From Calditrichia bacterium (lineage in GTDB: Bacteria > Calditrichota > Calditrichia > RBG-13-44-9 > J075): a stretch of 34,668 bases of DNA. Below the pieces are notes generated by a model, which saw nothing but the letters and a program-made list of their open reading frames with translations, searched no databases and was not told where the DNA came from. Below are positions 1,290 through 34,149 of this stretch, piece by piece. The DNA lies in NCBI GenBank assembly GCA_028284905.1, contig JANQQU010000009.1, positions 1 through 34,668 on the forward strand, in the 5' to 3' direction. A program made the translations under genes and the position numbers. Each line of letters begins with the position of its first letter. Position 1 is the stretch's first letter.

Positions 1290-3806
1290 ATGGCAAACAG
1301 TTTGTTCAATAAAATCGTTGATATATTACTGCCGTATATGGGGACAGAAACCGTTCGTCAAACCCGCCTAGTGCCAATCTTAAGCGATTATAAAGGCATC
1401 TATAACCGCATTGACTGGTCCGGTGATGCCAAAACCTTTACCGTGCGCCTGGTAAAACAATGCGAAGATTTTGGTGATGTAGAAGTAGGTAAACCAGCTC
1501 AGGCGCTCTTGCTGGAAGCTTTGCGTCCGGAGGTAGGGGTGGATATTCAGATGCAAATTGATGGTTTACTAGCGCAGTTGGTGGGAGGAAAAGTAGACGT
1601 CTCTAAGAGTAAGGTACAAATTATTATAAGTGGAGATATCGTACAGTATAATAAGACTATTAAAAACTCTAGTTTGATAACAATCTTAGCTTCGATTTTG
1701 GGCATTTCGAAAGATGCTATATCTATCTTGAAAGTAATTGAGGGTAGTATTAGGGTTATAATAGAAATGCCAACGCAAAGTGCAAATCAATTATTAAAAT
1801 TGTTTCAATCTTCCAATTCAAAATTTTCTATTTTATCTGATTTTTTTAATCCATTCTTGATACAGACGATTCAAGTAGCTTCAGATACTGAGAATGCTCC
1901 ACCGCTACCTAGACTGATTGATAATTCTCAACTTGTCAACGCATTGCTTTCTTGTCCAAGCATAAGTGACCCTGCAATGCGTGGTGATATTATCAATTTA
2001 TTGCCGAACGATATCCGAAATAATATCCCACGTCGCAGTTCTGCAAGGGCGGACGTAAGGAATATTGTTAAAACCTGTCAAGATTATTCTGGCGGTTTGG
2101 AGAAACTGCTGGAAACGATTCGTAATTTTGAGGGCAATTCCTTGCCACTACAAGAAGTTGAACGGCTTGTAGTTAAGTCTGGTGCGCAGACAAATTTTTC
2201 TTTGTCAAATAAACCGAATAGGCGGGTACGTGTTAATTTAACAATGTCTGAGAAAAGTAGATCGGATAAATCTTACAAAATATTCATGGCACATTCCGAA
2301 TCAGAGCTTGATTATTTGGTTAGTTCCGAATTGTCGAAATACTTAATTGAGAGTAACTGTAAGGTTGTACAAGAGCAGGAAATTCATCAATCAAAAAATT
2401 GGGGAAAAAAATTAAAGGGAGAATTAGAAAAAGCAGATTGCTTTATGATTTTACTTTCTGAAAACAGTTTGGAAAGCCAAGTATTAATGGAACAACTTGT
2501 AATTGCAAAAGACATCTCTTCTTACCGGCAAGGAAGTCCAATTATCATTCCAGTTCGCATTAATCTTCCTAATGACCACAGGTTACCATATCATCTTAGT
2601 GTATATCTTCGGGACATATTTCAGGAAGAGTGGAACGACGGTGAAAATATGCTTGAATTAGCACAAAGGGTGATTGAAAGAATTTCAACAAATAGCGAAA
2701 AAACCTATTTAGAAACTAAGGAAGATTTAGTTGTAAAAATTAAATCCGCGCATCCACAACCCTCAGCAGATCCCCGTAGTCTAATAGTTCCGGGAGGAGC
2801 AATCGAACTAAGTTCGAAATTTTATGTCCTTAGAAATTCTGATGAAAAAGCGTTAAAAGCAATTTATCGGCCAAGAGCCATGGTTAATGTGCGTGGGGCA
2901 AGGCAAACCGGAAAAACATCACTTATAATACGTTTATATCATGCAAATAAAAAAAGAAAAGCAAGTTTGAGATCTGTGTTTTTTGACTTTCAAGCGTTTC
3001 CCAGTTCCTATTTTCAATCCCTTGATTCGATTTGGAAAGTTTTAGCAAATATGTTGGCTAATCAACTGGCTATTAAAGATTGGGACAATACCAAATGGGA
3101 TAAGGACGGATTTTATGCTATAAATTTTACGAATTTTTTAAACGACTTCGTTTTTGATAGAAATAAAACCCCTGTATTAATATGTATCGACGAAGGCGAT
3201 CGTGTTTTCAATACACCTTTAAAATCGGATTTTTATGCATCTTTACGGTCATTTTATAATCAAGGTGCCATGGAAGAGTGCTGGGGAAAAATTCACTGGC
3301 TAATTGCTACTTCAACGGAGCCTAGTTTTTTTATTGATGATATTTCTCAGTCCCCTTTTAATATAGGAACACATGTTCAACTTGATCCCTTTAATATTGA
3401 TGAAATCAAATACTTTGCCAATCAGTATAAATTAAACCTCTTGAATTCTGAATTAGAAGCAATAATGAATTATACAGGAGGATTACCTTTTCTAGTTCAT
3501 CTAATATTGTTTAATCTCTCATCAAAGCTAAAAACGCTTAAACAATTATTAAATATAAAAACCGCCGGAGATGGCGTATTTCTTGACCATTTAAATCGAT
3601 TTCTTATTCAATTCCATCAGGATAAAGCGTTATCGCAGGCAATGAAAAAGATTGTTATACAGAAAGATCCCCAAAATGGAAAACTAGTTAACAGGCTGGA
3701 AGCAGCGGGTTTGGTAAAATTTGCAAAAAGCGAAAACGAGTTTCAAATTCTCCCTTTTTGTGATTTATATCGGGAATTTTTTAGGAGAGGGTTAATTAAT
3801 GAATAA
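1290..3806 (+). CDS. EAD2-TIR-AAA_35 ATPase conflict-system effector
   Basis: This 838-residue multidomain protein reads as an NTPase-regulated TIR effector. Residues ~18-96 resemble an N-terminal adaptor seen in other bacterial conflict proteins (motifs IDWSGDAKTF, EVGKPAQALL, VGVD). Residues ~105-195 form an unnamed alpha/beta module with GSIRVIIEMP. Residues 214-296 are an EAD2 adaptor, closely matching those at 6340-6585 and 12632-12880. Residues ~328-462 are a TIR domain (YKIFMAHSESE, FMILLSENSL); Glu401 in LMEQL sits where the catalytic NADase Glu is expected. Residues ~500-835 are a STAND-like AAA_35 ATPase, with Walker A GARQTGKTS (536-544) and Walker B VLICIDEGD (629-637). NAD cleavage is inferred from the TIR family. 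The stop overlaps the next start by 8 bases, so the two are probably translated together. Confidence 0.85.
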   Translation: MANSLFNKIVDILLPYMGTETVRQTRLVPILSDYKGIYNRIDWSGDAKTFTVRLVKQCEDFGDVEVGKPAQALLLEALRPEVGVDIQMQIDGLLAQLVGGKVDVSKSKVQIIISGDIVQYNKTIKNSSLITILASILGISKDAISILKVIEGSIRVIIEMPTQSANQLLKLFQSSNSKFSILSDFFNPFLIQTIQVASDTENAPPLPRLIDNSQLVNALLSCPSISDPAMRGDIINLLPNDIRNNIPRRSSARADVRNIVKTCQDYSGGLEKLLETIRNFEGNSLPLQEVERLVVKSGAQTNFSLSNKPNRRVRVNLTMSEKSRSDKSYKIFMAHSESELDYLVSSELSKYLIESNCKVVQEQEIHQSKNWGKKLKGELEKADCFMILLSENSLESQVLMEQLVIAKDISSYRQGSPIIIPVRINLPNDHRLPYHLSVYLRDIFQEEWNDGENMLELAQRVIERISTNSEKTYLETKEDLVVKIKSAHPQPSADPRSLIVPGGAIELSSKFYVLRNSDEKALKAIYRPRAMVNVRGARQTGKTSLIIRLYHANKKRKASLRSVFFDFQAFPSSYFQSLDSIWKVLANMLANQLAIKDWDNTKWDKDGFYAINFTNFLNDFVFDRNKTPVLICIDEGDRVFNTPLKSDFYASLRSFYNQGAMEECWGKIHWLIATSTEPSFFIDDISQSPFNIGTHVQLDPFNIDEIKYFANQYKLNLLNSELEAIMNYTGGLPFLVHLILFNLSSKLKTLKQLLNIKTAGDGVFLDHLNRFLIQFHQDKALSQAMKKIVIQKDPQNGKLVNRLEAAGLVKFAKSENEFQILPFCDLYREFFRRGLINE

Positions 3807-6297
3807 AGTAAACAGTAAAAAAAATATTAAGTCGAAAGAAGATTTTTTTCATACGTATGCGGCACTTAGTCCGGATGCCCCCAGCTATGTAACACGCAAA
3901 GCTGATAATGAACTCCTGGCAGCAGTAATTCGCCATGAAATCTGTCTGATATTAGCGCCCAGGCAGTCTGGTAAATCCAGCTTGGCAATGCACGCTATTT
4001 CTCAATTAAATAATCAAAAATTGTATCCCAATTTGTATGCGACAGGATATATTGATTATACCCAGTTGGGAACAAATAATAGTCAAAAAAGTGCAGAAGG
4101 TTGGTTTCGAGATTTAATTTTGATTATCGGAAAAAAACTCGAAATAGAATCGGAAACGAAAGCATGGCTTAAGGATAATGATTCCATGGGGCCAACACTG
4201 AAATTTGCTTCATATTTAAAAGAATTACTTTTGCAAAAGATTAGAAAAAATATCATTATATTTTTTGATGAAATTGAAACAGTGTTAAAACTTTCATTTT
4301 CAGATGACTTTTTTGCTACAATCAGGTCAATTTATATTGAAAGATCTGAAAGTACAGATAACATTGAGTTAAGCCGACTTACGTTTGTTTTTTTGGGAAC
4401 AACAACTGCCTCGGATCTGATTAAAGATAAAACAAGAACTCCTTTTAATATTGGTCGCGAAATCCAATTAACAGATTTTACTAAAGAATCTATTGCTCCA
4501 TATAAACAAGTCTTAGGTGAAGACAGTGACGATTTGATAGAACGAGTTTTTTATTGGACGAATGGTCAACCATGGATGGTTCAAAAACTTGCGAAAGCTG
4601 TATTTGATATTCAGCAAAAAAAATTAAAACAAAATAAAATTAATCAATTAACAATTGACAAGGAAGTTTCAGAAAATTTTTTAAATCAAAGAATTGAAAA
4701 TGATACGCATTTAAAGTTTATTCAGGATTATTTATCGCAAGACGAGGATAAAAAGAAATTTCGAAAAACTTTACAGTTATATCAAAAAATTTTAAAAGGG
4801 AAGAAAATTTCTGAAGATAAAGATTCACCTATTCAAACCAGATTGAAATTATCAGGTGTTGTTCGGGTTGAGAACGATCAGTTGGTTCCACGAAATAAAA
4901 TTTATGAAAATATCTTTAATCTCAAATGGGTCAGAAAGAAAACACCTTTGGATCTATCTAGGATATTACTCTCTTTAACGACTGTAATTTCTCTTAGCTT
5001 CGTTCTTTGGTTGCAATTTATTCAGCCGGAGTTTTTTCCCAGATTTATGAATTCTAATTTCGTAAAATCACAATTAGCAAGTCCAGACTCGTTAATTTAT
5101 CTAAAGTATGTCCAAGATCCAGCAGACTATAATATTCATGTGCCACGTGCAGATTTTGATGAAATACATTTTGATAATAAAAAACAGCCAATTATAAATG
5201 ATGAACCGATAGAAATATCACTGAGCCCTCAAACAGGTGAATCAAACCATGAGCTTAAACTTATAGGTGGTTTTTTTAGTAAAGAACGTAAAATACCTGT
5301 AAAAATTATTTATTATGAAAACTGGAAAATTTGGGAGTCTGTTGGAACCGATACACTTAGAAATGGAAAAATCAAAAGGAAAGATGATGTAAAGATTTAT
5401 GATGCAGCGTTTTCAAGTGATGAAGAATATATTATTACATCTGACAGTGATGATGAATTAGTGTTATGGAATGCAAAAAGTGGACAGCAATTGAAACGAT
5501 TTAAAGGGCATACAAGAGATATCTGGGGAGTTGATTTTCATCCGAACAGTAAGTGGGTAATATCAGCCAGTGATGATAGAACTATAAGATTATGGGATAT
5601 CAATTCAGGTGAAGAAATAAAAGTATTTCCCAAAATCCATAGAGGCCCAATTAATTGCATTGCCTTTTCACCAGACGGAAACCAAGTGATTTCCGGGAGT
5701 AATGATAAGAATCTTATTTTATGGAGTATTGAAAATGAAGATATCTCGTATGTGATATTAGGAGATGAAAGCACCAATCATAAAGGCGGAATTAAAGGAG
5801 TAGATTTTTCACCAGATGGAAAATGGGTTATTTCCAGCGGCTATGATAATAATATTAAGATTTGGAATGTTTTTAAAAGGGAATTACATCAAACTCTTAA
5901 AGACTCACCGCTTTTTTCCAGTCATGAAGGAACTATCAGGGGGATTTCCTTCTCACCCGACAGTAAAATGATAGTTTCGAGTAGTTATGACCTGAAAGTA
6001 AAAGTATGGATAAGTGAGAGTAATAACATTTTTCATCTCAAGAATGTATATCCGTCGTTTCATACTAATAATATCAAGGATTTAGATATATCTCCGAAAA
6101 GTAACGCAGGCGCTTCTGTTGGAGATGACGGAAAATTAAAATTATGGGATATTTATTCGGGAAATGAATTACGTGCATATCCGGAACAAAATTCCCGGAT
6201 ATTTAGTGTTGCCTTTTCGCCGGATGGAAAAAAAGTAGTTACTGGAAACGCTAGAGGAGAACTAATTTTGTGGTGGGCGGAAGTTGATGTGCAGTAG
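3799..6297 (+). CDS. AAA_35 ATPase-transmembrane-WD40 propeller protein
   Basis: In this 832-residue protein, residues ~20-375 are an AAA_35 ATPase with Walker A PRQSGKSS (54-61), Walker B IIIFFDEIE (152-160) and the family stretch TRTPFNIGREIQL (212-224). One hydrophobic helix (~388-410) could anchor it in the inner membrane. A linker follows, then seven WD40-like repeats from ~532 to 827, ending in blades such as IRLWD, LILWS, IKIWN, VKVW and LKLWD, which is enough for one closed propeller. If the helix spans the membrane, ATPase and propeller lie on opposite sides; the propeller may be a ligand or protein sensor. It has no EAD of its own but starts inside the TIR gene, with AGGAGAGG about 9 bases upstream, so it is likely the sensor or regulatory partner of that protein. 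Role is inferred; the architecture is clear. Confidence 0.87.
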   Translation: MNKVNSKKNIKSKEDFFHTYAALSPDAPSYVTRKADNELLAAVIRHEICLILAPRQSGKSSLAMHAISQLNNQKLYPNLYATGYIDYTQLGTNNSQKSAEGWFRDLILIIGKKLEIESETKAWLKDNDSMGPTLKFASYLKELLLQKIRKNIIIFFDEIETVLKLSFSDDFFATIRSIYIERSESTDNIELSRLTFVFLGTTTASDLIKDKTRTPFNIGREIQLTDFTKESIAPYKQVLGEDSDDLIERVFYWTNGQPWMVQKLAKAVFDIQQKKLKQNKINQLTIDKEVSENFLNQRIENDTHLKFIQDYLSQDEDKKKFRKTLQLYQKILKGKKISEDKDSPIQTRLKLSGVVRVENDQLVPRNKIYENIFNLKWVRKKTPLDLSRILLSLTTVISLSFVLWLQFIQPEFFPRFMNSNFVKSQLASPDSLIYLKYVQDPADYNIHVPRADFDEIHFDNKKQPIINDEPIEISLSPQTGESNHELKLIGGFFSKERKIPVKIIYYENWKIWESVGTDTLRNGKIKRKDDVKIYDAAFSSDEEYIITSDSDDELVLWNAKSGQQLKRFKGHTRDIWGVDFHPNSKWVISASDDRTIRLWDINSGEEIKVFPKIHRGPINCIAFSPDGNQVISGSNDKNLILWSIENEDISYVILGDESTNHKGGIKGVDFSPDGKWVISSGYDNNIKIWNVFKRELHQTLKDSPLFSSHEGTIRGISFSPDSKMIVSSSYDLKVKVWISESNNIFHLKNVYPSFHTNNIKDLDISPKSNAGASVGDDGKLKLWDIYSGNELRAYPEQNSRIFSVAFSPDGKKVVTGNARGELILWWAEVDVQ

Positions 6298-6321
6298 ACC
6301 TTTTTATTCAGGAAGAAAACT

Positions 6322-7458
6322 ATGGCCAATGAATTCTTAAATATCGTCGATGCTCTTCTCAAATGTCCTAGTATTCAAAATACCGACACTCGTAGCGATA
6401 TTATAAACTTATTACCGGATGATATAAGTAATAATATTGATTATCGTAGCTCGGCCCGTCCTCATGTGATGAGTATTGTTAAGACCTGTCAGAATTACGA
6501 GGACGGGTTGGAGAAATTACTAGAAGTACTCCGTACCTATGAAGGCAATTCTTTGTCGATGCAGGCTGTTGACGCTCTATTTCTAAATGCCGAACCTAAT
6601 CAGATTATTGAATTTCAACAAACTATACCAGAAACAAAAGATAATTTAACCTATCCAAAAGAACCAAAGCTGCAAAGAGATTTAGCTTCATCTAGCAGGA
6701 AGAAGAATCTAAGTAATCTTAATTCTGAATCGTTTGCAGAGCTAAAGGAGAAATCCTGGCAACGCAATCATCTTTGCCTAATTGCAGTACAAGATTATTT
6801 ATATCAACGCCCACTCAATTTTCCAATTTCTGATGCAGTTAGATTACGAGATACTCTAACCACATTCTATACTTTTGCCCCAGAAAGCATCACTTTTTTA
6901 ACTAACCCGACACGTACGGAATTATTGGCAAAATTAGAAGAATTGGAGCGAAAAATTGAGGAAGATGATAATTTACTAATTTTTTTTGCGGGCCATGGGG
7001 AATGGAATAAACGTCGGCGACAAGGTTACTGGCTGCCGAAAGATGCTGAAACGGATAACAAAGCTAATTGGATTTCCAATAGCGATATCAGAGACCAATT
7101 AAATGGATTTCAGGCCAGACATGTTCTATTGATTAGTGATGCCTGCTTTAGTGGTGGAATTCTCGATGTCCGTAAGTCCGGTAACTATCAGGAAAAAACT
7201 ATTCCGGAATTACAAAAAAGTTCCAGTCGTCAGGCCTTGACAAGTGGAATGAAGGAAGAAGCCGTATCGGATTACAGTGAGTTTATTAATTATTTAATTT
7301 TGCGGTTAACAGAGAATGAAAAAGATGCGCTAACTGCTGAAGAATTATATGGTTTGCTTCGCCATTCAGTGATTTACAATGCTGATAATAGGCCAGAGTT
7401 CGGTGTGATCCACAAAACAGGGCATGACAGCGGGGAATATGTGTTTTATCGACAATAA
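6322..7458 (+). CDS. EAD2-caspase-like (C14 metacaspase-type) protease effector
   Basis: Residues ~7-88 of this 378-residue protein are an EAD2 adaptor almost identical in pattern to those of the TIR protein and VMAP. A polar linker (~90-145) leads to a caspase-fold peptidase (~148-378). The catalytic pair is visible: His225 in FFAGHGEW and Cys275 in ISDACFSGG. A later SRQALTSGMKEE segment and the C-terminal SGEYVFYR are typical of bacterial caspase homologues. It should be a cysteine endopeptidase cutting after basic residues or similar, released or activated through its adaptor domain. It lies 24 bases after the AAA-WD40 gene, with AGGAAG before the ATG, so it probably belongs to the same transcript. 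Substrates cannot be read from sequence. Confidence 0.88.
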   Translation: MANEFLNIVDALLKCPSIQNTDTRSDIINLLPDDISNNIDYRSSARPHVMSIVKTCQNYEDGLEKLLEVLRTYEGNSLSMQAVDALFLNAEPNQIIEFQQTIPETKDNLTYPKEPKLQRDLASSSRKKNLSNLNSESFAELKEKSWQRNHLCLIAVQDYLYQRPLNFPISDAVRLRDTLTTFYTFAPESITFLTNPTRTELLAKLEELERKIEEDDNLLIFFAGHGEWNKRRRQGYWLPKDAETDNKANWISNSDIRDQLNGFQARHVLLISDACFSGGILDVRKSGNYQEKTIPELQKSSSRQALTSGMKEEAVSDYSEFINYLILRLTENEKDALTAEELYGLLRHSVIYNADNRPEFGVIHKTGHDSGEYVFYRQ

Positions 7459-7600
7459 ATATATTTCACTTGGTGTTTATCGAGCATTAAGAACGATATA
7501 TTAACCAACATTAAAAACATAATTATTTCACTTTTGCTAGATAAATCTGGCCTACATTTTTTTTACAACTTTTCGACGCTATTAATTTGATTATTTATCC
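7459..7600. other. Convergent intergenic region
   Basis: This 142-base AT-rich gap lies between the ends of the plus-strand effector set and the minus-strand ternary operon. A run of eight Ts occurs near 7557-7564, but no GC-rich hairpin precedes it on either strand, so I cannot name a terminator. Confidence 0.4.
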
Positions 7601-7990
7601 TTAATATTTCTCATAAGTCCGATGAGCTATAAGAAGGATTTCAGAAAATATTTCCTCACATTCGAAACAACTGTTTAAGTGTGTTAATAGTAAGGTAGAA
7701 TCTTTTTTAGTCAATTGACTTAAGAAAATAACCAATAATAACTTGTCGTTATTTAGTAATATGGATCTTCCTGGCTGGCAAATAGGACTTTGCAGTTCTT
7801 TAAGGGTTTCTTGTTCTTTATGATACACTTGTACATCACGATACAATTCTTCTAAATTTGATAGATATGTAGAGAGTTTCTGCCCTGGAGGACTTTCTCT
7901 ATATAATTGCTCTTCTCTGTCTTGTTTTGCTCTAAGTATACCTATTGCTTGTCCGAGAAGCTTCAAATTATCGTTCATTTTATTTATCAC
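7601..7990 (-). CDS. Small protein with C-terminal zinc-finger anti-sigma (ZAS)-like motif
   Basis: This 129-residue protein has a charged, probably helical N-terminal half (~10-65) and no membrane segment. Near the end it carries H-x3-C-x2-C (His104, Cys108, Cys111 in THLNSCFEC), preceded by LLLVIFLSQLTKKD. This layout matches the zinc-finger anti-sigma core (…L..YL.GEL…HL..C..C…), although in known ZAS proteins the motif usually lies near the N-terminus. It follows the vWA-sigma gene by 8 bases, which supports an anti-sigma or partner role. The first start is GTG at 7990, with an ATG four codons later (7978); neither has a good ribosome binding site, so coupling to the upstream gene is likely. 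Function is inferred from motif and position only. Confidence 0.55.
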   Translation of the reverse strand: MINKMNDNLKLLGQAIGILRAKQDREEQLYRESPPGQKLSTYLSNLEELYRDVQVYHKEQETLKELQSPICQPGRSILLNNDKLLLVIFLSQLTKKDSTLLLTHLNSCFECEEIFSEILLIAHRTYEKY

Positions 7991-7998
7991 TTAATTGA

Positions 7999-10389
7999 TT
8001 AACTCATTAATTCGTCTATAAAATCAGCATCATTTTTTATAGATGTACGTATTCGACTAACTATTTTGGATATTCTATTTTTGCTATACATTTCATTCTT
8101 CAAGGCTGGGTGAAAAAGAATAGTTTCTATTGATAAGCCCTTCATAGAATACAAGTAAAAAATATGAATATCTCGCTCAATATTTTCCCTATGGGAATGT
8201 TTTTCTCTTAAATACTTTACTAGAAAATCATAAACTTCGAAGGCAGCATTCCCTTCGATTTTTTTTTCAGAGAAAGGCTTGCCAGGTTCTGGTGGATCGA
8301 CCATCATAGCGATGTACTTCGGACGCATATACTGATGCACGTTTCGTCTGCAAATAGTTGCTAGGTAAGCGCGAAACTTAGCTTCACTTTCTTTTTCGAA
8401 ACGGAAATTACCTAAATGATTATAAAGAATTGTAAAAACATTCAGAACAATATCTTCGGTGATCTTATCCGGAACCCGGCGTGCTAAAGGATAATGATAT
8501 TGTCTAACAGCAGTGTTCACTTGCTTGTAAATAAATGGATTGTAAATTTCATAAAACCCTCGCCAGGCAATTCCATGGTTGGGCGATTCACGATCCACGC
8601 AATGTTTAAAGAGTTCCTCAGAATATTGAGTATATTTTTTCCGCCTTACAAAAATATTCTGGGAAAATTTTTGAATTTTATCTCCCCAACTAGTTGAATT
8701 TTCCTTTTCTTCTTGAACAATTAACTCTTCCCAAAAAGAATCATTTGAATCTTCTTGAACATCTTGATATTCTTCCTCTAATTTTTTTGCAATTTTTGAA
8801 TACTTACCCCCTAGGCATCGTAAAACTTCAGCTGAAAGAGTAGCAAATGGTTTAACTGTTTCATCTATATAAATTTTATCATCGGGATTTTTAATAAAAC
8901 TAACAAAATTAAACTTTTTACCAGCATATTGATTAATAAATCGAGAGACGAGTTCAAGTACTTCTAAACTCTCGCTAATTTGAGTGTTTTTTATCAGTAC
9001 TTTTCTGACACCTGGCAAAAACTCAAACTCAATATGGTCTGATCGCATCGTATAATATGTTTCACCAGGATATTTTAGATCGATGAGTCCGCTAAGTAAA
9101 ATTTCTGCTAAATGGGTTTGTTTTGCCTGTGGTAACATCACCTGCTGAATCAAGCGCATTACCGGAAAACTGAGCGGAGCAGCAGCTAAACAAAGGATTA
9201 ATTGATTCGCAATGGGGGAAGCGGTTGATTGAAAGCGTTTGACAAGTTCTAGAGGCTCTTTTTTTTCTTTCTCTTTTTTAATTCTGAGCGATAAGTTGTG
9301 ATTTTCATCAGTATCGTATTCTTTTTCATTATGCACATATGGCATAATAATGCCATTGATAAATAAATTGTTTTGAGAAGATAGTACGTTTGCCCATAAC
9401 AAAAGTGAATTAGGCGTTATATTAATAACAGGCACAGCAACTCCATTTAATGAGGTTTTTCGTTTCCATTCCCAGGGCGAAACTGATTTAAGTTTGGAAT
9501 TACTAGAGGCTGGTTTGTCACTAAATATTTTTACTGGTGGCATTTTTCCAAGAGATGTTCTGTGCCACATATATTGGGGCAACATATGTGCTATTGTCAC
9601 TGAACAATATTTTCCCCAGTTACCTATTGTATTGGAAATTTGTCCATTTCGCCAACCTGAAGAAACACAGTCACTGAAAACTAGTATAAGACGGCGCCCA
9701 TTTACATCGATTAATTCTTTAGGATTACGGCTTTGTTTATCCTGATAGCCCTGTTCGGAAAAAGTATAAAATTCTAATTTTTCATCAGCTCCAGACAAGA
9801 ATTCCCATACGGAGATATTGCGGAATGCCCCCTGCCTTTCAAGTAGTTTGTTAAATTCCTTAATGAGTGGACGCCAAATTGCCATTGTCGGTGAGTTTTC
9901 TATCACGAGTGCAATATCCAACCACCGCTCTTTTACAGGTGTTAATACAGGAGCCCAAATTCGTTCATTACTGATTCGTTCAACTGTCGCCAGTTCATTC
10001 ATTTCAAACTGAAAAGTTGAAGAGATATTCCGATTAAATGGACGTAATGAACGGCTTATTTCTAACTTTCCTGGAAGATTTGAAACGCCAGGTGTTCTAA
10101 AAGTTTCAAAAATACTGTCTTGAGAAAATGGCAGCGGTAATATGAGTTCAGCATTCTTATTTGATTTCTTCTCTTCGCTTCTAGATTTTTCTTCTTCGTT
10201 TATTTGATGTTTTACATATTGCTTTTGGGGACTTTTTTTGCTGTTATAAGAGTTTGCTGAATCCAGGAAGTTGGGATTGTTTATAACCGATTCATCGATA
10301 TAAGTGGCTAACCATAATACATCGGCCATTTCCTCTATCGTTAATTCCGAATCTAGATTTTGTAGCAAAATTGTGATCTCTTCGAGCAT
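7999..10389 (-). CDS. vWA (SAV_2336-type) component of ternary conflict system fused to a C-terminal sigma-70-like domain
   Basis: This 796-residue protein opens with a short helical SAV_2336-type start (IEEMADVLWLATYI, 18-31), then a polar linker. A vWA-like domain (~150-350) has the degenerate MIDAS ENSPT (164-168), a later Asp in VFSDC (D240) and the family string WRNG. Residues ~385-545 match the conserved middle of the family (ASPIANQLILCLAAAPLSFP, QTHLAEILLSGL, FLPGVRK). From ~605 to 690 it reads as sigma-70 region 2 (FYEIYNPFIY, ITEDIVLNVF, FRAYLATICRRNVHQYMR). Residues ~715-790 read as region 4, ending in a helix-turn-helix-like segment (IFYLYSMKGLS, NRISKIVSRIR). The start overlaps the MoxR stop (TAATG). 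The vWA call is firm. The sigma call rests on pattern and is good but needs a profile search. Confidence 0.8.
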   Translation of the reverse strand: MLEEITILLQNLDSELTIEEMADVLWLATYIDESVINNPNFLDSANSYNSKKSPQKQYVKHQINEEEKSRSEEKKSNKNAELILPLPFSQDSIFETFRTPGVSNLPGKLEISRSLRPFNRNISSTFQFEMNELATVERISNERIWAPVLTPVKERWLDIALVIENSPTMAIWRPLIKEFNKLLERQGAFRNISVWEFLSGADEKLEFYTFSEQGYQDKQSRNPKELIDVNGRRLILVFSDCVSSGWRNGQISNTIGNWGKYCSVTIAHMLPQYMWHRTSLGKMPPVKIFSDKPASSNSKLKSVSPWEWKRKTSLNGVAVPVINITPNSLLLWANVLSSQNNLFINGIIMPYVHNEKEYDTDENHNLSLRIKKEKEKKEPLELVKRFQSTASPIANQLILCLAAAPLSFPVMRLIQQVMLPQAKQTHLAEILLSGLIDLKYPGETYYTMRSDHIEFEFLPGVRKVLIKNTQISESLEVLELVSRFINQYAGKKFNFVSFIKNPDDKIYIDETVKPFATLSAEVLRCLGGKYSKIAKKLEEEYQDVQEDSNDSFWEELIVQEEKENSTSWGDKIQKFSQNIFVRRKKYTQYSEELFKHCVDRESPNHGIAWRGFYEIYNPFIYKQVNTAVRQYHYPLARRVPDKITEDIVLNVFTILYNHLGNFRFEKESEAKFRAYLATICRRNVHQYMRPKYIAMMVDPPEPGKPFSEKKIEGNAAFEVYDFLVKYLREKHSHRENIERDIHIFYLYSMKGLSIETILFHPALKNEMYSKNRISKIVSRIRTSIKNDADFIDELMS

Positions 10390-11396
10390 TAGTAATCCGA
10401 TGAGCTTAAGTATCTCAGGACATCATTAAGTAATTCTTCCTTAATGTTTTCATCTGTATGAAAGTCTATTCCTTTAGTTAAAAGGTAAATTGCATTCAAA
10501 AGTTGATCTGTTGCAAGATCTCCCCCCTCACGTTTTGCTAGAAACAAATTTACCAATTCATTTCTCTTTTGAATGAGAGATTTATCCAGGTCACCAAAAT
10601 GAGCATCGACAATTTTGGCGAGTTTCTCAGGATCGGGATCTGAAATATCCAAGCGTAAGCATCTCCTTAAAAAAGGAGGGGGCAGTTCACGTTCTCCATT
10701 GCTGGTTATAACGACAAAAGGAAAAGCTGCACAGCGAATTTGGCCTCTAATTATGGAAACTTTATCATTACCATCATGTGGAAATATTTTAACTTTTTCC
10801 TTATCTTCAGGCAGTCGAGCAAGTTCAGGTATTTCATACTCACCTTCTTCGAAGATATTTAACAAATCATTAGGTAAATCGATATCACTTTTATCAATTT
10901 CATCGATAAGCAAAACCCTTGGTTCTTTTGTGGGGAGTAAAGCAGTGCCTAATGGGCCTAATCTAATAAATTGCCCAATATCGGGCTCACTTTTTGTTAA
11001 GTTTGCTTCTTGCAAGCGGCCAATAGCATCATAGCGGTATAAGGCATCCTTTAAATTAGATCTTGAGGTAATGGACCAACGCAGTACTCTTCCGAGACCG
11101 AGCTCATGGGCAACGGCATAAGCCAGGGAAGATTTGCCAGTACCTGGTTTTCCTGTTACTAATAGTGGGCGGCGAAGATATAAAGATGTATTAACCAGGA
11201 TAATTTCTTTCTCGCTCGCTTGAAAAGTAATTCCACGTTTTATATGACCAAAGCGGCGTTCTAAGTGTGGATCTTCTTCCAATTGCCTGTCGTCTAAAAT
11301 TTTTCCGTCATACTGACGCCAACGAGGTGCTGGAGGCAACTTCTTTATACCTTGATGCGGTTTACCGATGCCCTTATAAATCCGCCATTTACTCAT
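10389..11396 (-). CDS. MoxR-family AAA+ ATPase of the ternary conflict system
   Basis: This 335-residue MoxR-type AAA+ ATPase has Walker A GKPGTGKSS (82-90), Walker B RVLLIDEID (160-168), sensor-1 Asn233 in VITSNGERELPPPFLRR and an arginine-finger candidate at 244-245. Proteins of this type remodel a vWA-domain partner; here the vWA gene follows at once with a one-base overlap, and VMAP precedes it by 14 bases. This is the fixed VMAP-MoxR-vWA order of ternary systems. The length suits the short members of the family without extra effector domains. AAGGAAAA lies about 9 bases before the ATG. Confidence 0.9.
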   Translation of the reverse strand: MSKWRIYKGIGKPHQGIKKLPPAPRWRQYDGKILDDRQLEEDPHLERRFGHIKRGITFQASEKEIILVNTSLYLRRPLLVTGKPGTGKSSLAYAVAHELGLGRVLRWSITSRSNLKDALYRYDAIGRLQEANLTKSEPDIGQFIRLGPLGTALLPTKEPRVLLIDEIDKSDIDLPNDLLNIFEEGEYEIPELARLPEDKEKVKIFPHDGNDKVSIIRGQIRCAAFPFVVITSNGERELPPPFLRRCLRLDISDPDPEKLAKIVDAHFGDLDKSLIQKRNELVNLFLAKREGGDLATDQLLNAIYLLTKGIDFHTDENIKEELLNDVLRYLSSSDY

Positions 11397-11410
11397 ATTC
11401 TTTTCCTTAA

Positions 11411-12901
11411 CTAAATAGCATGAAATTGCGTGTCAATTCGGTTGTCAAATTCTAATGGTAAGCGTTCAGGATCATCCCATAATAAAGTTAAATAATTTCC
11501 TAAGTGCTTTTCATTTCCCTTTACAGTTGCTTCAATGCGAAATTTTTTGGTCTCTTCTAAAAGGAAATTTAGTTTATTATGTGATAATAGTTTTGGAATC
11601 TCAATGTCTACAATATCTATCGCAATATAACTAGCCGCTTTTTTGCGTGGCCAAAGTGCAATAGGAATACCAGCACGAAGAATTGCACCGAGAATTGAGT
11701 AACCATCGTTATTATCTTTAGGGGTAAAGTTAAAGCCCAAGCAAGCAAGGGGTTCATTTTGAGTGATATTATAATAAAGTGCTAACGGCTCTTGTTGATT
11801 GTCAGATACAAAATCAATGGAATTAGCTATGGGAGCTAAAGTTTTATTATAACAAAGTTTTTTCCACTTTTTTCGCCAATACCCTTGCAGTTCGGGATCT
11901 AATGCTCTCTCTAAAGACCTAACAACAACCTTATGTTCATTGCCAATTTTTATTTTTCCTACGAATGTATCCTCTTTCATCCATTGGTCTACTTCAAGAG
12001 AGATAAGTTCTCTGGGTAAAAAAAATTCAATTATCAAATCAGTTATTTTATCTAGAAGAATCTTTGCTAATTTGTTGATATAAGTGTTAATAACCTTGGG
12101 AATATCATTTAAGAGATATAAATCATCCTCTTTATATAGATATCTGGTATTATCTTTATCCTGCCAAAGTGAAATATGCACTAAATATTTTTTATTCCTG
12201 GGACGTAGTTGATTGGCTTGATCTGGATGAATTTCAATTAACAAATATGGCCAGCTTGATGCTTCTAATTGATTTTTTTTTATCTTTTTAGTTAATGAGT
12301 TAAATTTAGCCTTCTCAATGCCCAATTCCTCGGCAATTAATGCATTCTTTTTCTTAAGTTTTTTGTCTATATCAGGATTCTCGGGTTTAATATATTCCGA
12401 TAAGTAATAAATAAAACTAATAATAGGGTATAAACCATCTTCTTGTTCTGGAATATCCCAAAGGTGATCCAACATTGCCCAAATAGATTTGCTATCCACT
12501 CGAGGAAAAATAGACTCTGGTAAACTCAATATATAGATATCTTTTACTTCATTTATCGTTAATCCTGCTCCACTAACGATAGAAAAAATTTCAAATTTGT
12601 ATTTTTGATCAATTATCCCGGGCATTAATTGATTACCAAGAAGGTTCTTTACTGCAAGAAATGCAATTGATTCACCCTCGTAATAATCTACAATATCAAT
12701 TAATTTTTCCATTCCATCCGGATAGGCTTGACAAGCATCAACAATATTTATAACGTCAGAACGGTTTTGGGGCCTTCTTTCAATATTGTTTTTGATATCT
12801 TCGGGAAGTTGTTTAACAATATCATTTCGAATGCCGGGATTACTGATGTTCTCGCATTGCAAAAGGGCGTTAACAATTTTTATTTTTTGACGGAAATTCA
12901 T
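11411..12901 (-). CDS. EAD2-VMAP protein (vWA-MoxR-associated protein)
   Basis: This 496-residue protein starts with an EAD2 adaptor (~8-90). A middle region (~95-205) follows, then the VMAP C-terminal domain (~210-490). Family hallmarks seen are WPYLLIEI (217-224), EFFLPREL (292-299), VDQW (304-307), VVVRSLERA (325-333), WRKKWKKL (342-349), AGIPIALWP (410-418) and LLWDDPERLP (473-482). VMAPs bridge the MoxR/vWA pair to effectors; the EAD2 is expected to bind the EAD2 of the TIR and caspase proteins on the other strand. It has no protease domain of its own, so the effector activity would have to be supplied in trans. It is the first gene of the minus-strand ternary operon, with 208 bases of AT-rich DNA upstream. 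Confidence 0.9.
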   Translation of the reverse strand: MNFRQKIKIVNALLQCENISNPGIRNDIVKQLPEDIKNNIERRPQNRSDVINIVDACQAYPDGMEKLIDIVDYYEGESIAFLAVKNLLGNQLMPGIIDQKYKFEIFSIVSGAGLTINEVKDIYILSLPESIFPRVDSKSIWAMLDHLWDIPEQEDGLYPIISFIYYLSEYIKPENPDIDKKLKKKNALIAEELGIEKAKFNSLTKKIKKNQLEASSWPYLLIEIHPDQANQLRPRNKKYLVHISLWQDKDNTRYLYKEDDLYLLNDIPKVINTYINKLAKILLDKITDLIIEFFLPRELISLEVDQWMKEDTFVGKIKIGNEHKVVVRSLERALDPELQGYWRKKWKKLCYNKTLAPIANSIDFVSDNQQEPLALYYNITQNEPLACLGFNFTPKDNNDGYSILGAILRAGIPIALWPRKKAASYIAIDIVDIEIPKLLSHNKLNFLLEETKKFRIEATVKGNEKHLGNYLTLLWDDPERLPLEFDNRIDTQFHAI

Positions 12902-15815: not shown

Positions 15816-17684
15816 CTACATCTTCCCACTTTTCGTTCCATCATCGGCAATATCCGGTGCTTCCGGTGCGGTGGGGGCCCCGGCAGCGCCGCCGCTGTTC
15901 AGGTAAACCATCTGGCCATTGATATAAACCCCGGCCGGGCCGATGCTGATAAAATTGCCGGAAGCCTTCAGGGAAATTTCCATGCCGGCTTCTATGACGA
16001 TTTTTTGTCCGGCTTTTATGGAAATGGTTTGCCCCACTTCTTCATTGCGATTGCCCTCTACTTTCAGGTGTTTATCGCCCTTTACCGCTTCTTTCTGATT
16101 TGCCTCTACTACCAGATGCCGCTCGTTGCCGACCCATTCCCGTGCGTCATTTAACACCCGTTGGTCAAAGTCGTGCTGGGCATGGATGAAGATCTGCTCA
16201 CTGCCTTTTTTATCTTCAAAACGCAGCTCATTAAAACCACCATGTCCTTTCGAGCTATCCGACTTGATCGCACTTTTCGTCTGTTCGGCGGGCAGCTCGT
16301 AGGGCGGCATCTGTTGAGCATTGTAAACCCGCCCGGTAATGATCGGCCGGTCCGGATCGCCTTCGAGAAAATCAACAATTACTTCCTGGCCGATGCGGGG
16401 AATAAAAATCACGCCCCACTTTTTCCCTGCCCAGTTTTGGGAGACCCGCACCCAGCAGGAGCTGTTTTCATCGGATTTTCCTTCGCGGTCCCAGTGAAAC
16501 TGCACCTTTACCCGCCCATATTGATCCACCCAGATTTCTTCATCGGACGGCCCAACCACCACCGCTGTTTGTACACCACGCACAAACGGTTTTGAGGTTA
16601 AACTGGCCGGCCGGTACGGCACTGTAAAAGGAATACAGGTAAATTCATTCCGATAGGAAAATCCATCCCCAAAAGGATTAGCGGACGGGGCATAACTGTT
16701 TTCCAGGGCAACATGACGGATCGCCGTGAGCAGGTAAGTCGCATTCATGTCATTGCGGTAGTGGTCGAACAAGTCGAAGCGATAACCGGCGCTAAACGCC
16801 CGGCAATTGCTGCTGCCATTGATAGTTATCCCCGGTGCTTCTGTTTCTTCTATTCGCACCTTAATCAGATTATCCCCATCGGCTTTTTGTTGATAATTCC
16901 CGGGATAATCATAAACCTCGTATTGACTGTTATTGCTGCCAGTACCGGTAATATTAGCCTGCAGTTTATTGGTGGGCATTTCGAAGTTATAATCCCGCAA
17001 AGCTATTTTTCCAGAGCGCATGCTCTGCAATATTTCCCAGCCCTGAACCACATCTTCCTTTAATGCGCCATCCCCGCTAGTTTGATAACGGGCCCGGGGC
17101 TGCCCGTTGCAGGGCTGATGGATGTTCGGCGAATTGGCCAGCACCATAATATGTTTATCAGCACTATGCTCAAAAAAATAGTAAATGCCCTCTTCTTCCA
17201 TCAAGCGGGAGATAAAATTGAAATCCGATTCCCGGTATTGCACGCAATAGTCTCGTTTACGAAAGCTGCCGTGCAGTTCATTGCGAAAATCACTAAAGCC
17301 CATATCGGAGAAGACTTTCTCGATAATGTCCGGTGCAGTCATTTTCTGGAAAATGCGACAGTTGGCATTGAGGGTCAGGAACCAGGTCCAGGGAACCATT
17401 TCTGCAGTGTAATGGGTGAGTTCCTGATTGCTGCCGCCCTGGGTAAATCGACTGATAAAGCCGTTAAAAAAGCGTTGACTCCCATCATTCAATTCTACGG
17501 TAATGGTTACATTCTGGCTGAGAATGGCCGAATAATCTATTTTCGGATTTAAGGACAACAGGTCCAATTTGAAATTGAACAAATGAGAGATGGCTTCTTC
17601 GCCATTAAATCCTTGTAGCAACAAGGTGTCTTTTCCCAGCGGGGTTTTTATTTTAATAAGACGGGTTTCTTGAGTATAGTTCAC
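15816..17684 (-). CDS. vgrG: VgrG spike protein (TssI)
   Basis: VgrG forms the trimeric spike at the tip of the Hcp tube. I chose the GTG at 17684 (622 residues), because AAGGAGAG ends about 4 bases upstream and the protein then begins VNYTQETRLIKIKTPLG, the normal VgrG start. The longer frame would run 80 bases into the preceding gene. From this start, residues ~1-350 are the gp27-like part (ESDFNFISRLMEEEGIYYFF near 152-171). An OB-fold follows at ~387-450 (YGRVKVQFHWDREG; CWVRVSQNWAG; GVIFIPRIGQEVIVDFLEGD). A repetitive beta-needle runs from ~480 to 590. The chain stops about 35 residues after the needle, so this VgrG has no toxin extension. Confidence 0.95.
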   Translation of the reverse strand: MNYTQETRLIKIKTPLGKDTLLLQGFNGEEAISHLFNFKLDLLSLNPKIDYSAILSQNVTITVELNDGSQRFFNGFISRFTQGGSNQELTHYTAEMVPWTWFLTLNANCRIFQKMTAPDIIEKVFSDMGFSDFRNELHGSFRKRDYCVQYRESDFNFISRLMEEEGIYYFFEHSADKHIMVLANSPNIHQPCNGQPRARYQTSGDGALKEDVVQGWEILQSMRSGKIALRDYNFEMPTNKLQANITGTGSNNSQYEVYDYPGNYQQKADGDNLIKVRIEETEAPGITINGSSNCRAFSAGYRFDLFDHYRNDMNATYLLTAIRHVALENSYAPSANPFGDGFSYRNEFTCIPFTVPYRPASLTSKPFVRGVQTAVVVGPSDEEIWVDQYGRVKVQFHWDREGKSDENSSCWVRVSQNWAGKKWGVIFIPRIGQEVIVDFLEGDPDRPIITGRVYNAQQMPPYELPAEQTKSAIKSDSSKGHGGFNELRFEDKKGSEQIFIHAQHDFDQRVLNDAREWVGNERHLVVEANQKEAVKGDKHLKVEGNRNEEVGQTISIKAGQKIVIEAGMEISLKASGNFISIGPAGVYINGQMVYLNSGGAAGAPTAPEAPDIADDGTKSGKM

Positions 17685-17687
17685 ATT

Positions 17688-17695
17688 CTCTCCTT
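17688..17695 (-). promoter_or_regulatory. Ribosome binding site that fixes the vgrG start
   Basis: Read on the minus strand, this is AAGGAGAG, followed by AAT and then GTG at 17684. It overlaps the stop codon of the upstream gene by one base. It is the best reason to prefer the GTG over the ATG at 17774. Confidence 0.7.
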
Positions 17696-18264
17696 TATAC
17701 GGTATCCACACGCAAAAACTCGATACCATTATCGTCAAAAGGTTTGGAGAAATCCAAATGTCCCCGATCGGCAAATGCTTCTAGATCTGCGCTGCCTGGC
17801 TGAATGAATAGATCAAAAGGAACTGGTCTGCCTGGAATTCGTTCTAGTTTACGTTTTGCGATGATATTACCATATGCGTCAAATTTGCAAAGTTCTTGTT
17901 GCCAACTGACACCTCGATTTCCCAAACCAATAGACATGGTACCGCGTGAACGATTGCCGTTTCGATAACCCCTGGTTTTTATTTTGACAAAAATTGCATA
18001 ATGGCCAATGTACCTAACATAAATTAATTGCCAGCCGCCTTCGGGGCCATATGGGTGTTTTTCTGCTAAGAGAAATCGCAACCTTCGCAAAGCGTGATTC
18101 ATATCGTTTAAGTCAGAAAATCTTGGGGCTCCGGTTGAACGGTTAATTATTTCCCCTAATAATTGAAACCGGACAAATCGTTGGGCTCGCTCCAAATAAG
18201 AAAATTCTGGCCCGTTACCTTCTATTATTTTCGGAGTCCATTTCCGTGAGGTTTCTTCAGACAT
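17695..18264 (-). CDS. Hypothetical VgrG-linked protein, possible cargo effector
   Basis: This 189-residue protein ends 10 bases before the vgrG start. The family is not recognised. It has an N-terminal helical part (LERAQRFVRFQLLGEIINR; NHALRRLRFLLAEKH). A beta-rich basic core follows (WQLIYVRYIGHYAIFVKIKT, GYRNGNRSRGTMSIGL). The end contains GHLDFSKPFDDNGI. The core and the His/Asp-rich end resemble the layout of polymorphic-toxin tails, but no catalytic set can be named. The gene looks somewhat AT-richer than vgrG, as is common for exchangeable cargo. It could be an effector or an adaptor. No secretion signal or membrane segment was seen. Confidence 0.6.
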   Translation of the reverse strand: MSEETSRKWTPKIIEGNGPEFSYLERAQRFVRFQLLGEIINRSTGAPRFSDLNDMNHALRRLRFLLAEKHPYGPEGGWQLIYVRYIGHYAIFVKIKTRGYRNGNRSRGTMSIGLGNRGVSWQQELCKFDAYGNIIAKRKLERIPGRPVPFDLFIQPGSADLEAFADRGHLDFSKPFDDNGIEFLRVDTV

Positions 18265-31558: not shown

Positions 31559-33424
31559 TTACTCCGTCCTCAGCTTTTCCCGGGAATTGATATTTGCCGC
31601 AAGCAGCACCCCGAGATTATCCACGAAAAAAGCGATCTGTCTTTCCAGTAATCTTCGCAAATCTGTCGGAATTGCCTGCTGGCGCAAAACGATCAGTAAT
31701 TCGTCTTTCAGCAAGGAGCGCTGGGTGGATTTGGTTAACTCCTGCAACTCCAGGTTTAGCAATGCAAGCACCTGTTGGCCATTGGATTGCCCCTTCAATG
31801 CCGGTAGTAAAAATTGGCGGACAAACGGGCGGAATTTTTCGTGAAAGAGCAGCCGCGCCGGAAGATGCATCTCCGCACTGCGCTGATATCCCCAGGACCA
31901 GCCAACCCCGGCAGCCATCACTTCGATCTGGCTGCGCAGCTGATCCAGCTGGCGAAAGTAATTTTCTTCCAAATGGCCATCGAGATGGCGCGCCTGTAAA
32001 GCGAGCGCGTTTTGCTGGATGCTTTCCAACTGATGCTTGCTCTGCATAAACGAGCGGGAAGCACTCAACACAAAAAAGAAGAGAATCACCGTTAAACCGC
32101 CGATGATCACCCTTTCCTTGGTGGTCAGTCGTGGTGGCGCCAGCGGGCGGGCAAGCTTCTGTGCCCCGACGATTACGCGGGTAAAGAGCTCCCGCAGGAA
32201 AAAACTTTTCGGCTGGTCGAGCGGCACGGTTCCACCCTCGCTGCCATCCGCTGCCCACTCCGCTTCCTCCGGATTTGTTTGTGCGACCGGCTGGGTGCCG
32301 CTGGTGAAGTAAAATCCCCGGAAAAATGGGGTTTCCTGGTATTCATTCGGCTGGAAGAGTTTATCGGTGAAATAAACCAGCTTCTCCTGCAGCTTCTGAA
32401 AATGGAGCGGGAAGCGGTAAATTTTCCCGGGCAGATGTCCTTTGATATTGCCGTCCATACGGCTGAAGCGGCGCTCGAGCAATACCCGGTAAAGGCGATT
32501 GTATTCCTCCCGGAAAACTACCGCCGGGGGATGACTCGCCCATACTTTCTTCGGGAAGGAACATCCCCAGACCTGCTGCTGCTCATCGCCATTGAGATCT
32601 CCGAAAAAAGTGGTGAAACCGGGAATCAGATCGCATTTCGTGAAGAGCAGAAAGACCGGAAAATCGAACTTCAGCTTGCGAATCAATTCGTCGATGCGGC
32701 GGCGCATCCGGAAGGCATGTTTTTCCAGCGCTTCCTCATCTTCCCGCAAGAGATCTTCCAGGCTGACAGTAAGGATCACCCCGTTAATCGGCTGTTCCCG
32801 GCGATGGCGATTTAATAGCTTGAGAAATTCCGTCCACTCCGCCTCGTCACTTTGCTGCTGGGGAACGGTGTAGCGCCCGGCGGTATCGAGAAAGATGCCT
32901 GCATCGGAGAAAAACCATTCGCAATTTTTGGTGCCACCGAGGCCGCCCAGCTGTGGCTTGCCGTAGGGGAAGCGCAGTCCGGATTTCAGCAGAGCGGTGG
33001 ACTTCCCCGCGCCCGGTTTCCCGATGAGCATAAACCAGGGCAGTTTGTAAAGCGCCGATTGGGCATTCCCCGATTTTCCCAGCTTCGATTCGTTGAGAAT
33101 CTTCACCGCTTTCAGGAATTCCCGCTTCAAGCGTTTGATCTCCCCGCGCTTATGCGGGCGGGTATTGAGGATCTGTTGATCGGCCTGGTCGGTAAAGGAT
33201 TTCTCCAGGTGCTCCGCGCTTTTTTTCGCCTTGATGTGCTCGTAAACCACCAGGGCGACCAGCACCCAAACGAAGAGCACAATGGCGATGACCAGCAAAA
33301 GGGTGTTAATTTCCCAGTTATGACCGAGAATGCTGACGGTGGAAAGGGAGGCGATCCCCCCGCCGTGCACGCGTCCCAGGCCGCTTTTCCAGTAGTCGAG
33401 GGTAAGGTATTTTTCCAGGCTCAT
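31559..33424 (-). CDS. tssM: T6SS membrane protein TssM (IcmF family), short form
   Basis: TssM is the inner-membrane ATPase of the TssJLM anchor. This protein is only 621 residues; family members are usually about 1100-1300. One N-terminal membrane segment (~41-61) replaces the usual pair. The NTPase domain is intact, with Walker A GKPGAGKST (135-143), LDTAGRY (179-185) and a TKCD base motif (262-265). A second membrane segment spans ~438-455. Only about 165 residues follow it, so the large periplasmic domain that contacts TssJ is missing. No frameshift is evident: the stop is followed after 3 bases by tagF with an embedded ribosome binding site. Its start overlaps the tssL stop by 4 bases. 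It appears to be a natural short variant rather than a broken gene. Confidence 0.9.
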   Translation of the reverse strand: MSLEKYLTLDYWKSGLGRVHGGGIASLSTVSILGHNWEINTLLLVIAIVLFVWVLVALVVYEHIKAKKSAEHLEKSFTDQADQQILNTRPHKRGEIKRLKREFLKAVKILNESKLGKSGNAQSALYKLPWFMLIGKPGAGKSTALLKSGLRFPYGKPQLGGLGGTKNCEWFFSDAGIFLDTAGRYTVPQQQSDEAEWTEFLKLLNRHRREQPINGVILTVSLEDLLREDEEALEKHAFRMRRRIDELIRKLKFDFPVFLLFTKCDLIPGFTTFFGDLNGDEQQQVWGCSFPKKVWASHPPAVVFREEYNRLYRVLLERRFSRMDGNIKGHLPGKIYRFPLHFQKLQEKLVYFTDKLFQPNEYQETPFFRGFYFTSGTQPVAQTNPEEAEWAADGSEGGTVPLDQPKSFFLRELFTRVIVGAQKLARPLAPPRLTTKERVIIGGLTVILFFFVLSASRSFMQSKHQLESIQQNALALQARHLDGHLEENYFRQLDQLRSQIEVMAAGVGWSWGYQRSAEMHLPARLLFHEKFRPFVRQFLLPALKGQSNGQQVLALLNLELQELTKSTQRSLLKDELLIVLRQQAIPTDLRRLLERQIAFFVDNLGVLLAANINSREKLRTE

Positions 33425-34149
33425 GGTAAGTAGTCCTTCAGGGCAACGATGCCGTTAATGGTGTTGAGGGTTCCGTCGCTTAAAACCGCTATGGCGTAAT
33501 AGAGGCCGAAATAGAGCAGAATGCCGAACGCGCTGATGGTGAGGTAATACATCCACACCGGCACCTTGTAACTGCCGATGGTAATCATCGCGGTTTCCCG
33601 TGGCGCCGGGGGCAGCACGCCCTGCGGTGAGAGGCGCTGCCCGGGATGCTCAAAAACCTGCTGCAGCTCCCGGTGCACGTCGCTAATCAGCAGACGGCGC
33701 TTTTCTTCCTGCGTGCGCATATACTGACCGCGAAAGCCGAGCACCAGGCAGAGGTAGTAGACTTCCAGCACTTCCGCTTCCGCGGCCGGCCGGCGGAGCA
33801 TTTCTTCCAGATGAGTGTAAAATTCTTCCCCGGCGTTGAAATTCTGGTAGCGTTCGATCTGCAGGGGATTTTCACGCCAGACGTGCTTCTCCGCCCAGTT
33901 CGCAGAAATGATTGTTTCGTCGAGAAAAGCGACCAGGGCAAAAAGCGCCTTGTTGATCGATTTTTCCCGGTAACCGGCCGCCGCCGCGGCCTTTTCTATC
34001 TTTAGCAGAAATTGTTGGATACGCTGGCGCAGCACTTTGGCAGCGCCAAGATTGCGGCCGCTCTGCAGATTGAGCACCAGCATAAAGCCGGGGGTGAAAT
34101 ACTCCCCAAGACGTTTTCCATTGGCAGTATTGACGGTAGTGCTTGGCAT
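33421..34149 (-). CDS. tssL: T6SS membrane protein TssL (DotU family)
   Basis: This 242-residue TssL is the inner-membrane partner of TssM. DotU features are FALVAFLDETI (70-80), WRENPLQIERYQNFNAGEEF (91-110), EVYYLCLVLGFRGQY (129-143) and a single C-terminal membrane helix (~199-222). There is no OmpA-like peptidoglycan-binding extension; the chain ends 20 residues after the helix. GAAGGGGAAA precedes the ATG at 34149. It is the first T6SS gene in the direction of transcription within the window; tssK and tssJ, often nearby, are not seen. Confidence 0.93.
   Translation of the reverse strand: MPSTTVNTANGKRLGEYFTPGFMLVLNLQSGRNLGAAKVLRQRIQQFLLKIEKAAAAAGYREKSINKALFALVAFLDETIISANWAEKHVWRENPLQIERYQNFNAGEEFYTHLEEMLRRPAAEAEVLEVYYLCLVLGFRGQYMRTQEEKRRLLISDVHRELQQVFEHPGQRLSPQGVLPPAPRETAMITIGSYKVPVWMYYLTISAFGILLYFGLYYAIAVLSDGTLNTINGIVALKDYLP

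Follow-up and report, generated by a model that had tools for sequence, protein, structure and literature searches.

A subtype i T6SS with a conserved short TssM and no TssJ

The T6SS encoded in the window, which is the whole of contig C8 (34,668 bp), is a variant of subtype i whose membrane complex has undergone a conserved reduction: TssM stops about 550 residues before the end of its full-length relatives and TssJ has been lost with the missing part, in this genome as in that of a second genus; a further group of bacteria offers a parallel in part. In the genome concerned (G000; 8.55 Mb in 93 contigs, estimated to be 100% complete), the T6SS genes lie on the (-) strand in the order tssL, tssM, tagF, impE/tagJ, tssA, tssB, tssC, hcp, tssE, tssF, tssG and clpV, followed on the same strand by vgrG and small genes:

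33421..34149, (-) strand: tssL (DotU), 242 aa; PF09850, E=5e-51
31559..33424, (-) strand: short tssM, 621 aa; ORF, PF14331 (E=3.7e-73) and TIGR03348
30569..31555, (-) strand: tagF; PF09867 and TIGR03373
29582..30397, (-) strand: impE/tagJ; PF07024
27648..29573, (-) strand: tssA; PF06812 and PF16989
27017..27619, (-) strand: tssB, small sheath subunit; PF05591
25498..26997, (-) strand: tssC, large sheath subunit; PF05943 and PF18945
24881..25378, (-) strand: hcp, tube; PF05638
24307..24816, (-) strand: tssE, baseplate; PF04965
22466..24307, (-) strand: tssF, baseplate; PF05947
21480..22502, (-) strand: tssG, baseplate; TIGR03347
18727..21351, (-) strand: tssH/clpV; TIGR03345, above cut-off
15816..17774, (-) strand: vgrG/tssI, start codon uncertain, profile matched from residue 40; TIGR03361
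14812..15237, (-) strand: small DcrB-like protein near vgrG; PF08786, E=5.7e-06, slightly under cut-off

G000 thus encodes the subtype i components TssB, TssC, Hcp, VgrG and TssH, the baseplate proteins TssE, TssF, TssG and TssK, and TssL; all core ORFs of the cluster other than tssM are intact, and TssK is full-length elsewhere in the genome. No family besides PF09850, and no peptidoglycan-binding domain, was detected in TssL. The DcrB-like protein near vgrG is possibly an effector-loading chaperone. The roughly 500 bp between tssL and the contig end (34150-34668) contain no clear gene, and the cluster may continue beyond tssL on an unlinked contig.

The tssM gene is a single intact ORF of 621 codons, whose ATG overlaps the tssL stop codon and whose own stop is followed after four bases by the start of the tagF ORF at 31555. 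Alignment and hydropathy place the following features within it:

33245..33301, (-) strand: membrane helix, residues 42-60, counterpart of TM2 in full-length relatives (hydropathy, alignment)
32996..33022, (-) strand: Walker A of the NTPase domain, GKPGAGKST, intact (alignment)
32057..32113, (-) strand: membrane helix, residues 438-456, counterpart of TM3 (hydropathy, alignment)
31562..32050, (-) strand: residues 459-621, first helical segment of the periplasmic domain, kept (alignment, identity with the second genus, G006)

IcmF-related_N (PF14331) was the sole family detected in the protein, and full-length relatives additionally have PF06761, PF21070 and/or PF06744. The full-length TssM model TIGR03348 (1168 positions) aligned residues 42-496 with its positions 34-490 at 383.7 bits, barely under the cut-off of 388.15. 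An alignment with 16 relatives revealed that homology extends beyond the second helix up to where the first periplasmic helical segment ends. Past the end of the short protein, the full-length relatives continue for about 550 residues, which make up most of the IcmF-related part, the IcmF helical domain and the C2-like domain that binds TssJ. The short TssM therefore departs from the subtype i architecture of an NTPase domain, three helices and a full periplasmic domain including IcmF_C. An earlier note, made from the letters of this DNA, had described a TssM that lacks its periplasmic domain and ends about 165 residues after its second membrane segment. The length is borne out, with 163 residues counted past residue 458, and most of the domain is indeed missing, but a stretch of ~160 residues from its start, corresponding by homology to its first helical segment, is kept.

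The same note had seen only one N-terminal membrane helix, and hydropathy agrees: the short TssM has two clear membrane helices (42-60 being the N-terminal one) versus three in the full-length TssM of G008, a genome of the same order, and the segment aligned with TM1 of full-length relatives is not hydrophobic, with a Kyte-Doolittle peak of 0.94. An AlphaFold2 model (pLDDT 74) has a helix at residues 15-36, where TM1 is expected, although the prediction at this stretch uses relatives that have TM1. TM1 has probably been lost, judging from G000 as the one genome informative here, the G006 tssM being N-terminally cut. The best matches in a structure search with the AlphaFold2 model included GTPase-fold proteins, in agreement with the NTPase domain, and nothing informative for the periplasmic part.

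Among 80 named TssM relatives, the 72 with complete ORFs are all 1070-1763 residues long, none of them short, and the few shorter ORFs run off contigs. In a sample of 385 genomes (threshold E<=1e-30), the TssM N-terminal matches beyond G000 and G006 lay in frames of 804-1448 residues, the shortest of which (804) is near a contig edge. The exact short form was seen in these two genomes only, and TssM or TssK was found in 3 of 40 genomes of the phylum. Searches of the open-access literature turned up no T6SS described with such a short TssM.

The missing part of TssM was sought throughout G000 with three profiles: PF06744 had no match, TIGR03348 matched the short tssM only, and a profile built from the periplasmic domains of nine full-length TssM proteins had no match at E<=1 in either G000 or G006 (its controls, G008 at 3.4e-222 and G048 at 4.7e-148, both contribute rows to the profile). 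These searches exclude a split TssM with the missing part as a separate gene, which the earlier note had named as an outcome that would overturn its reading. That the TIGR03348 search is capable of finding such a gene is evident from G021, a genome of the same class, in which it detected a 361-residue protein that stands alone and has a single membrane helix, IcmF_helical and IcmF_C (contig C20; L133:7563-8648). This gene adjoins one for a small membrane protein, and neither TssK nor the TssM NTPase domain was found in G021.

The absence of tssJ that the earlier note had remarked on extends to the whole genome. PF12790 revealed no TssJ in G000 at E<=10 and none in G006 at E<=1, and a ten-row TssJ profile built from neighbouring full systems (controls at E<1e-34) gave nothing in G006 and, in G000, just one 12-bit stretch, a chance match within an RND-adaptor-like protein, which argues against a TssJ too diverged for Pfam. 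By both profiles, the outer-membrane lipoprotein of subtype i systems is absent from G000. The losses of TssJ and of the TssM C-terminus fit together, since TssJ binding in EAEC is confined to the C-terminal end of periplasmic TssM, namely the last ~200 residues (931-1129) of its 744-residue periplasmic domain (PMC3213119).

A genome search for tssK, which the earlier note had called for, located the gene outside the cluster, alone on contig C79 (60303-61668, E=7.6e-116), and the G006 tssK is likewise alone (G006:C144:470-1861; L099). Each genome has one TssK, and no other TssM or TssK was found in G000. A kinase-like gene and conflict-type genes lie next to tssK in G000, versus secA and a PqiA-like gene in G006, the two surroundings having nothing in common besides tssK itself. 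Both T6SS places of G000 neighbour genes with a shared N-terminal module of about 80 residues (e.g. 'LLxCPSIxDPxxRxDIINLLPxDIxNNI'): it is common to the large genes at 1290-12901 of the window and recurs at L004:2075-5735, adjoining the orphan tssK. By appearance the module is fused to TIR-like, caspase-like and AAA/WD40 parts, and we take these genes to resemble described conflict systems of multicellular bacteria.

We give about even weight to the reading that this is a real, conserved T6SS that docks at the inner membrane by TssL and the trimmed TssM, without the standard outer-membrane channel. On this preferred reading, TssL and TssM, through the NTPase domain, the membrane helices and the first helical periplasmic segment, would provide the TssK/EFG baseplate with a platform at the inner membrane; the sheath would assemble there and, the standard TssM/TssJ channel being absent, would drive its tip across the outer membrane of the cell itself. 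The gene content, the truncation and its recurrence in a second genus, the accompanying loss of TssJ and the presence of an outer membrane are observed; we infer both that such a machine functions and that it crosses the outer membrane without a dedicated channel. The suggestion of the earlier note that the trans-envelope anchor may be built differently here gains support from a short TssM common to G006, the loss of TssJ and a missing part that is not encoded.

A credible, if lesser, prospect is that the outer-membrane anchor has been rebuilt from an unrelated protein that homology searches would not recognise, encoded elsewhere (a lipoprotein, a porin-like or a peptidoglycan-binding protein) and docked on the helical stub of TssM, such that the complex spans the envelope differently. 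Known systems offer precedents: Acinetobacter without TssJ uses genus-specific proteins, Agrobacterium secretes Hcp without a TssJ homologue and Bacteroidota employ the unrelated TssNQOPR. Moreover, as tssK is dispersed, another component could be so as well, and the conserved segment following the second TssM helix must have a partner or a role. However, the G000 and G006 clusters share no lipoprotein and no additional gene, and the tssK neighbourhoods, as noted, nothing but tssK. A crude lipobox scan for a lipoprotein substitute revealed none on the cluster contig of G000 and none beside either tssK, and in L009 it picked out a short ORF overlapping clpV and nothing else.

In G006, which belongs to another genus of the same family and was separately assembled, TssM stops at the same homologous place within a T6SS cluster of the same gene order, again with TssJ undetected by profile searches. 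The truncated ends of the G000 and G006 TssM proteins are 37-39% identical. By region, identity is 45% across the matched cytoplasmic part, 33% over residues 459-545 and 47% over residues 546-605 near the C-terminus, and this rise toward the new C-terminus points to a functional terminus, unlike decay. G006 is a draft, 88% complete, in which tssM runs into a contig edge at its N-terminal end, and the N-terminal remainder was not found elsewhere in that genome. The alignment with related genomes that the earlier note had proposed thus yields a shared short end in G006 and a full-length protein in G008, whose 1180-residue TssM is encoded with TssJ lipoprotein, tssK and tssL genes adjacent and whose TssB and TssC are identical to those of CP070707.1.

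A degenerate system, in which TssM and TssJ are decaying and secretion has been lost, is improbable. The lost parts are essential in model systems and tssK has split from the cluster, as such a process might leave them, but every other core ORF is intact, the operon overlaps are retained, and the truncated end is common to two genera and as conserved as the NTPase part. A frameshift, a stop-codon error or an assembly deletion might be suspected in a contig from a 93-contig assembly, but we regard it as ruled out for practical purposes by the same short end in the independently assembled G006; moreover, tagF within four bases of the stop leaves no room for ~550 residues, and no TssM remainder lies anywhere in G000. 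The coupling to tagF, which the earlier note had used as an argument against a frameshift, is therefore upheld, and the combination of full-length TssM in close relatives with an error here, on which it would have given way, is not what the same-family G006 reveals. Least probable of all is an organism with no outer membrane and hence no need of an outer anchor, which would account for TssJ and the C-terminal part of TssM having disappeared together, but G000 has 14 Omp85-family matches above cut-off, as has the full-TssM relative G008, and thus has an outer membrane.

Short TssM forms also occur in a second group. In the phylum of G067 (195 genomes), ORFs of 486-617 codons whose match to TIGR03348 is confined to positions 77-452 occur in 7 genomes, which carry a full TssM in addition. 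The tree places the full TssM of short-form genomes beside a named Polyangiaceae sequence, which, among other indications, suggests that these genomes are Myxococcota. The five loci that we inspected (L161:8924-19998 in G473, L157/L158 in G483, L159/L160 in G444, L162 in G475 and L163 in G448) each encode a T6SS with tssK, tssL, short tssM, tssA, tssE, tssB, tssC, hcp, tssF and tssG, and no match to TssJ was detected in the inspected stretches of these five clusters. Like the G000 system, the second T6SS of these probable myxobacteria therefore has a short TssM and no TssJ in the cluster, with baseplate and sheath otherwise complete. Unlike in G000, its TssM is even shorter (433-477 aa), has one membrane helix and none N-terminally, carries Arg in place of the Walker A Lys, has a periplasmic tail rich in Pro in which [FW]DDAPPPP is repeated, and is accompanied by a full TssM elsewhere, these genomes having another, full T6SS. 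T6SSs whose TssM is trimmed and whose cluster lacks TssJ thus occur in no fewer than two distant groups, and it is a tentative and rather doubtful extension that they may constitute a class of contractile injectors that dock only at the inner membrane and pass through the outer membrane of their own cell with no channel across the envelope.

Trees of the sheath and of TssM disagree about the origin of the G000 cluster, which therefore looks mosaic. The TssB/TssC tree unites the G000 sheath with those of Nitrospirales, many Pseudomonadota (Acinetobacter among them) and the short myxobacterial systems in a clade distant from G008, whereas the TssM tree puts G000 and G006 together with G008, Aminicenantes, Rhodothermota and Ignavibacteriota. 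With a sheath from another T6SS lineage, the G008 system is not simply the full-length ancestor of the G000 cluster, and simple decay of a G008-type cluster is unsupported. A single clade of short forms was not rejected by the AU test (p=0.43 for TssM, p=0.47 for TssB+TssC), and the trees show none either. Systems with related sheaths (Granulicella, Azospirillum plasmids) have full-length TssM; the T6SS on the Granulicella tundricola plasmid pACIX901 (L164) combines two tssK genes with a full-length TssM, and no tssJ is annotated in it.

In subtype i T6SSs, the core that spans the envelope is taken to be TssJ together with the periplasmic channel of TssM. A conserved system lacking these outer parts, yet retaining the baseplate, TssL and the NTPase domain of TssM, separates baseplate docking from the crossing of the outer membrane, two functions that otherwise mostly go together. 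Such a system offers a natural test of whether firing depends on a channel through the outer membrane and of what portion of TssM makes up the minimal docking platform.

Compared with the known subtype i systems (TssJLM; EAEC, Vibrio, Pseudomonas), G000 shares TssA, B, C, E, F, G, K and L, Hcp, VgrG, ClpV and the TssM NTPase domain with its membrane helices, but its TssM is short by ~550 C-terminal residues and probably TM1, TssJ is absent and tssK is outside the cluster. The Acinetobacter T6SS, whose sheath is of the same broad lineage without being the nearest relative, likewise has no TssJ, but has a full-length TssM with a Gly/Ser linker near the C-terminus and builds its membrane complex with TsmK and other genus-specific proteins (PMC10564176); in the alignment, the linker-bearing region of TssM does not exist in G000. 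Agrobacterium secretes Hcp without a TssJ homologue and, as far as reported, without a trimmed TssM (PMC3702570). The CTS1 system of Citrobacter rodentium resembles G000 in that a TssM without its TssJ-binding domain contributes to the machine, but this form, cut at residue 807, supports secretion only alongside the full-length form, which is also made (by transcriptional slippage), both being required (PMC4256274), whereas G000 does not encode the missing part. Subtype iii of the Bacteroidota, like G000, has neither TssJ nor a TssM channel, but its unrelated TssNQOPR membrane complex comes without TssL and TssM (PMC10781749), of which G000 keeps TssL and the TssM NTPase domain. As far as reported, a trimmed TssM is the sole TssM in none of these four. 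Considered together, Acinetobacter and Agrobacterium indicate that TssJ can be missing, the Bacteroidota that the membrane complex is replaceable and C. rodentium that a truncated TssM can serve in the machine, there alongside the full-length protein.
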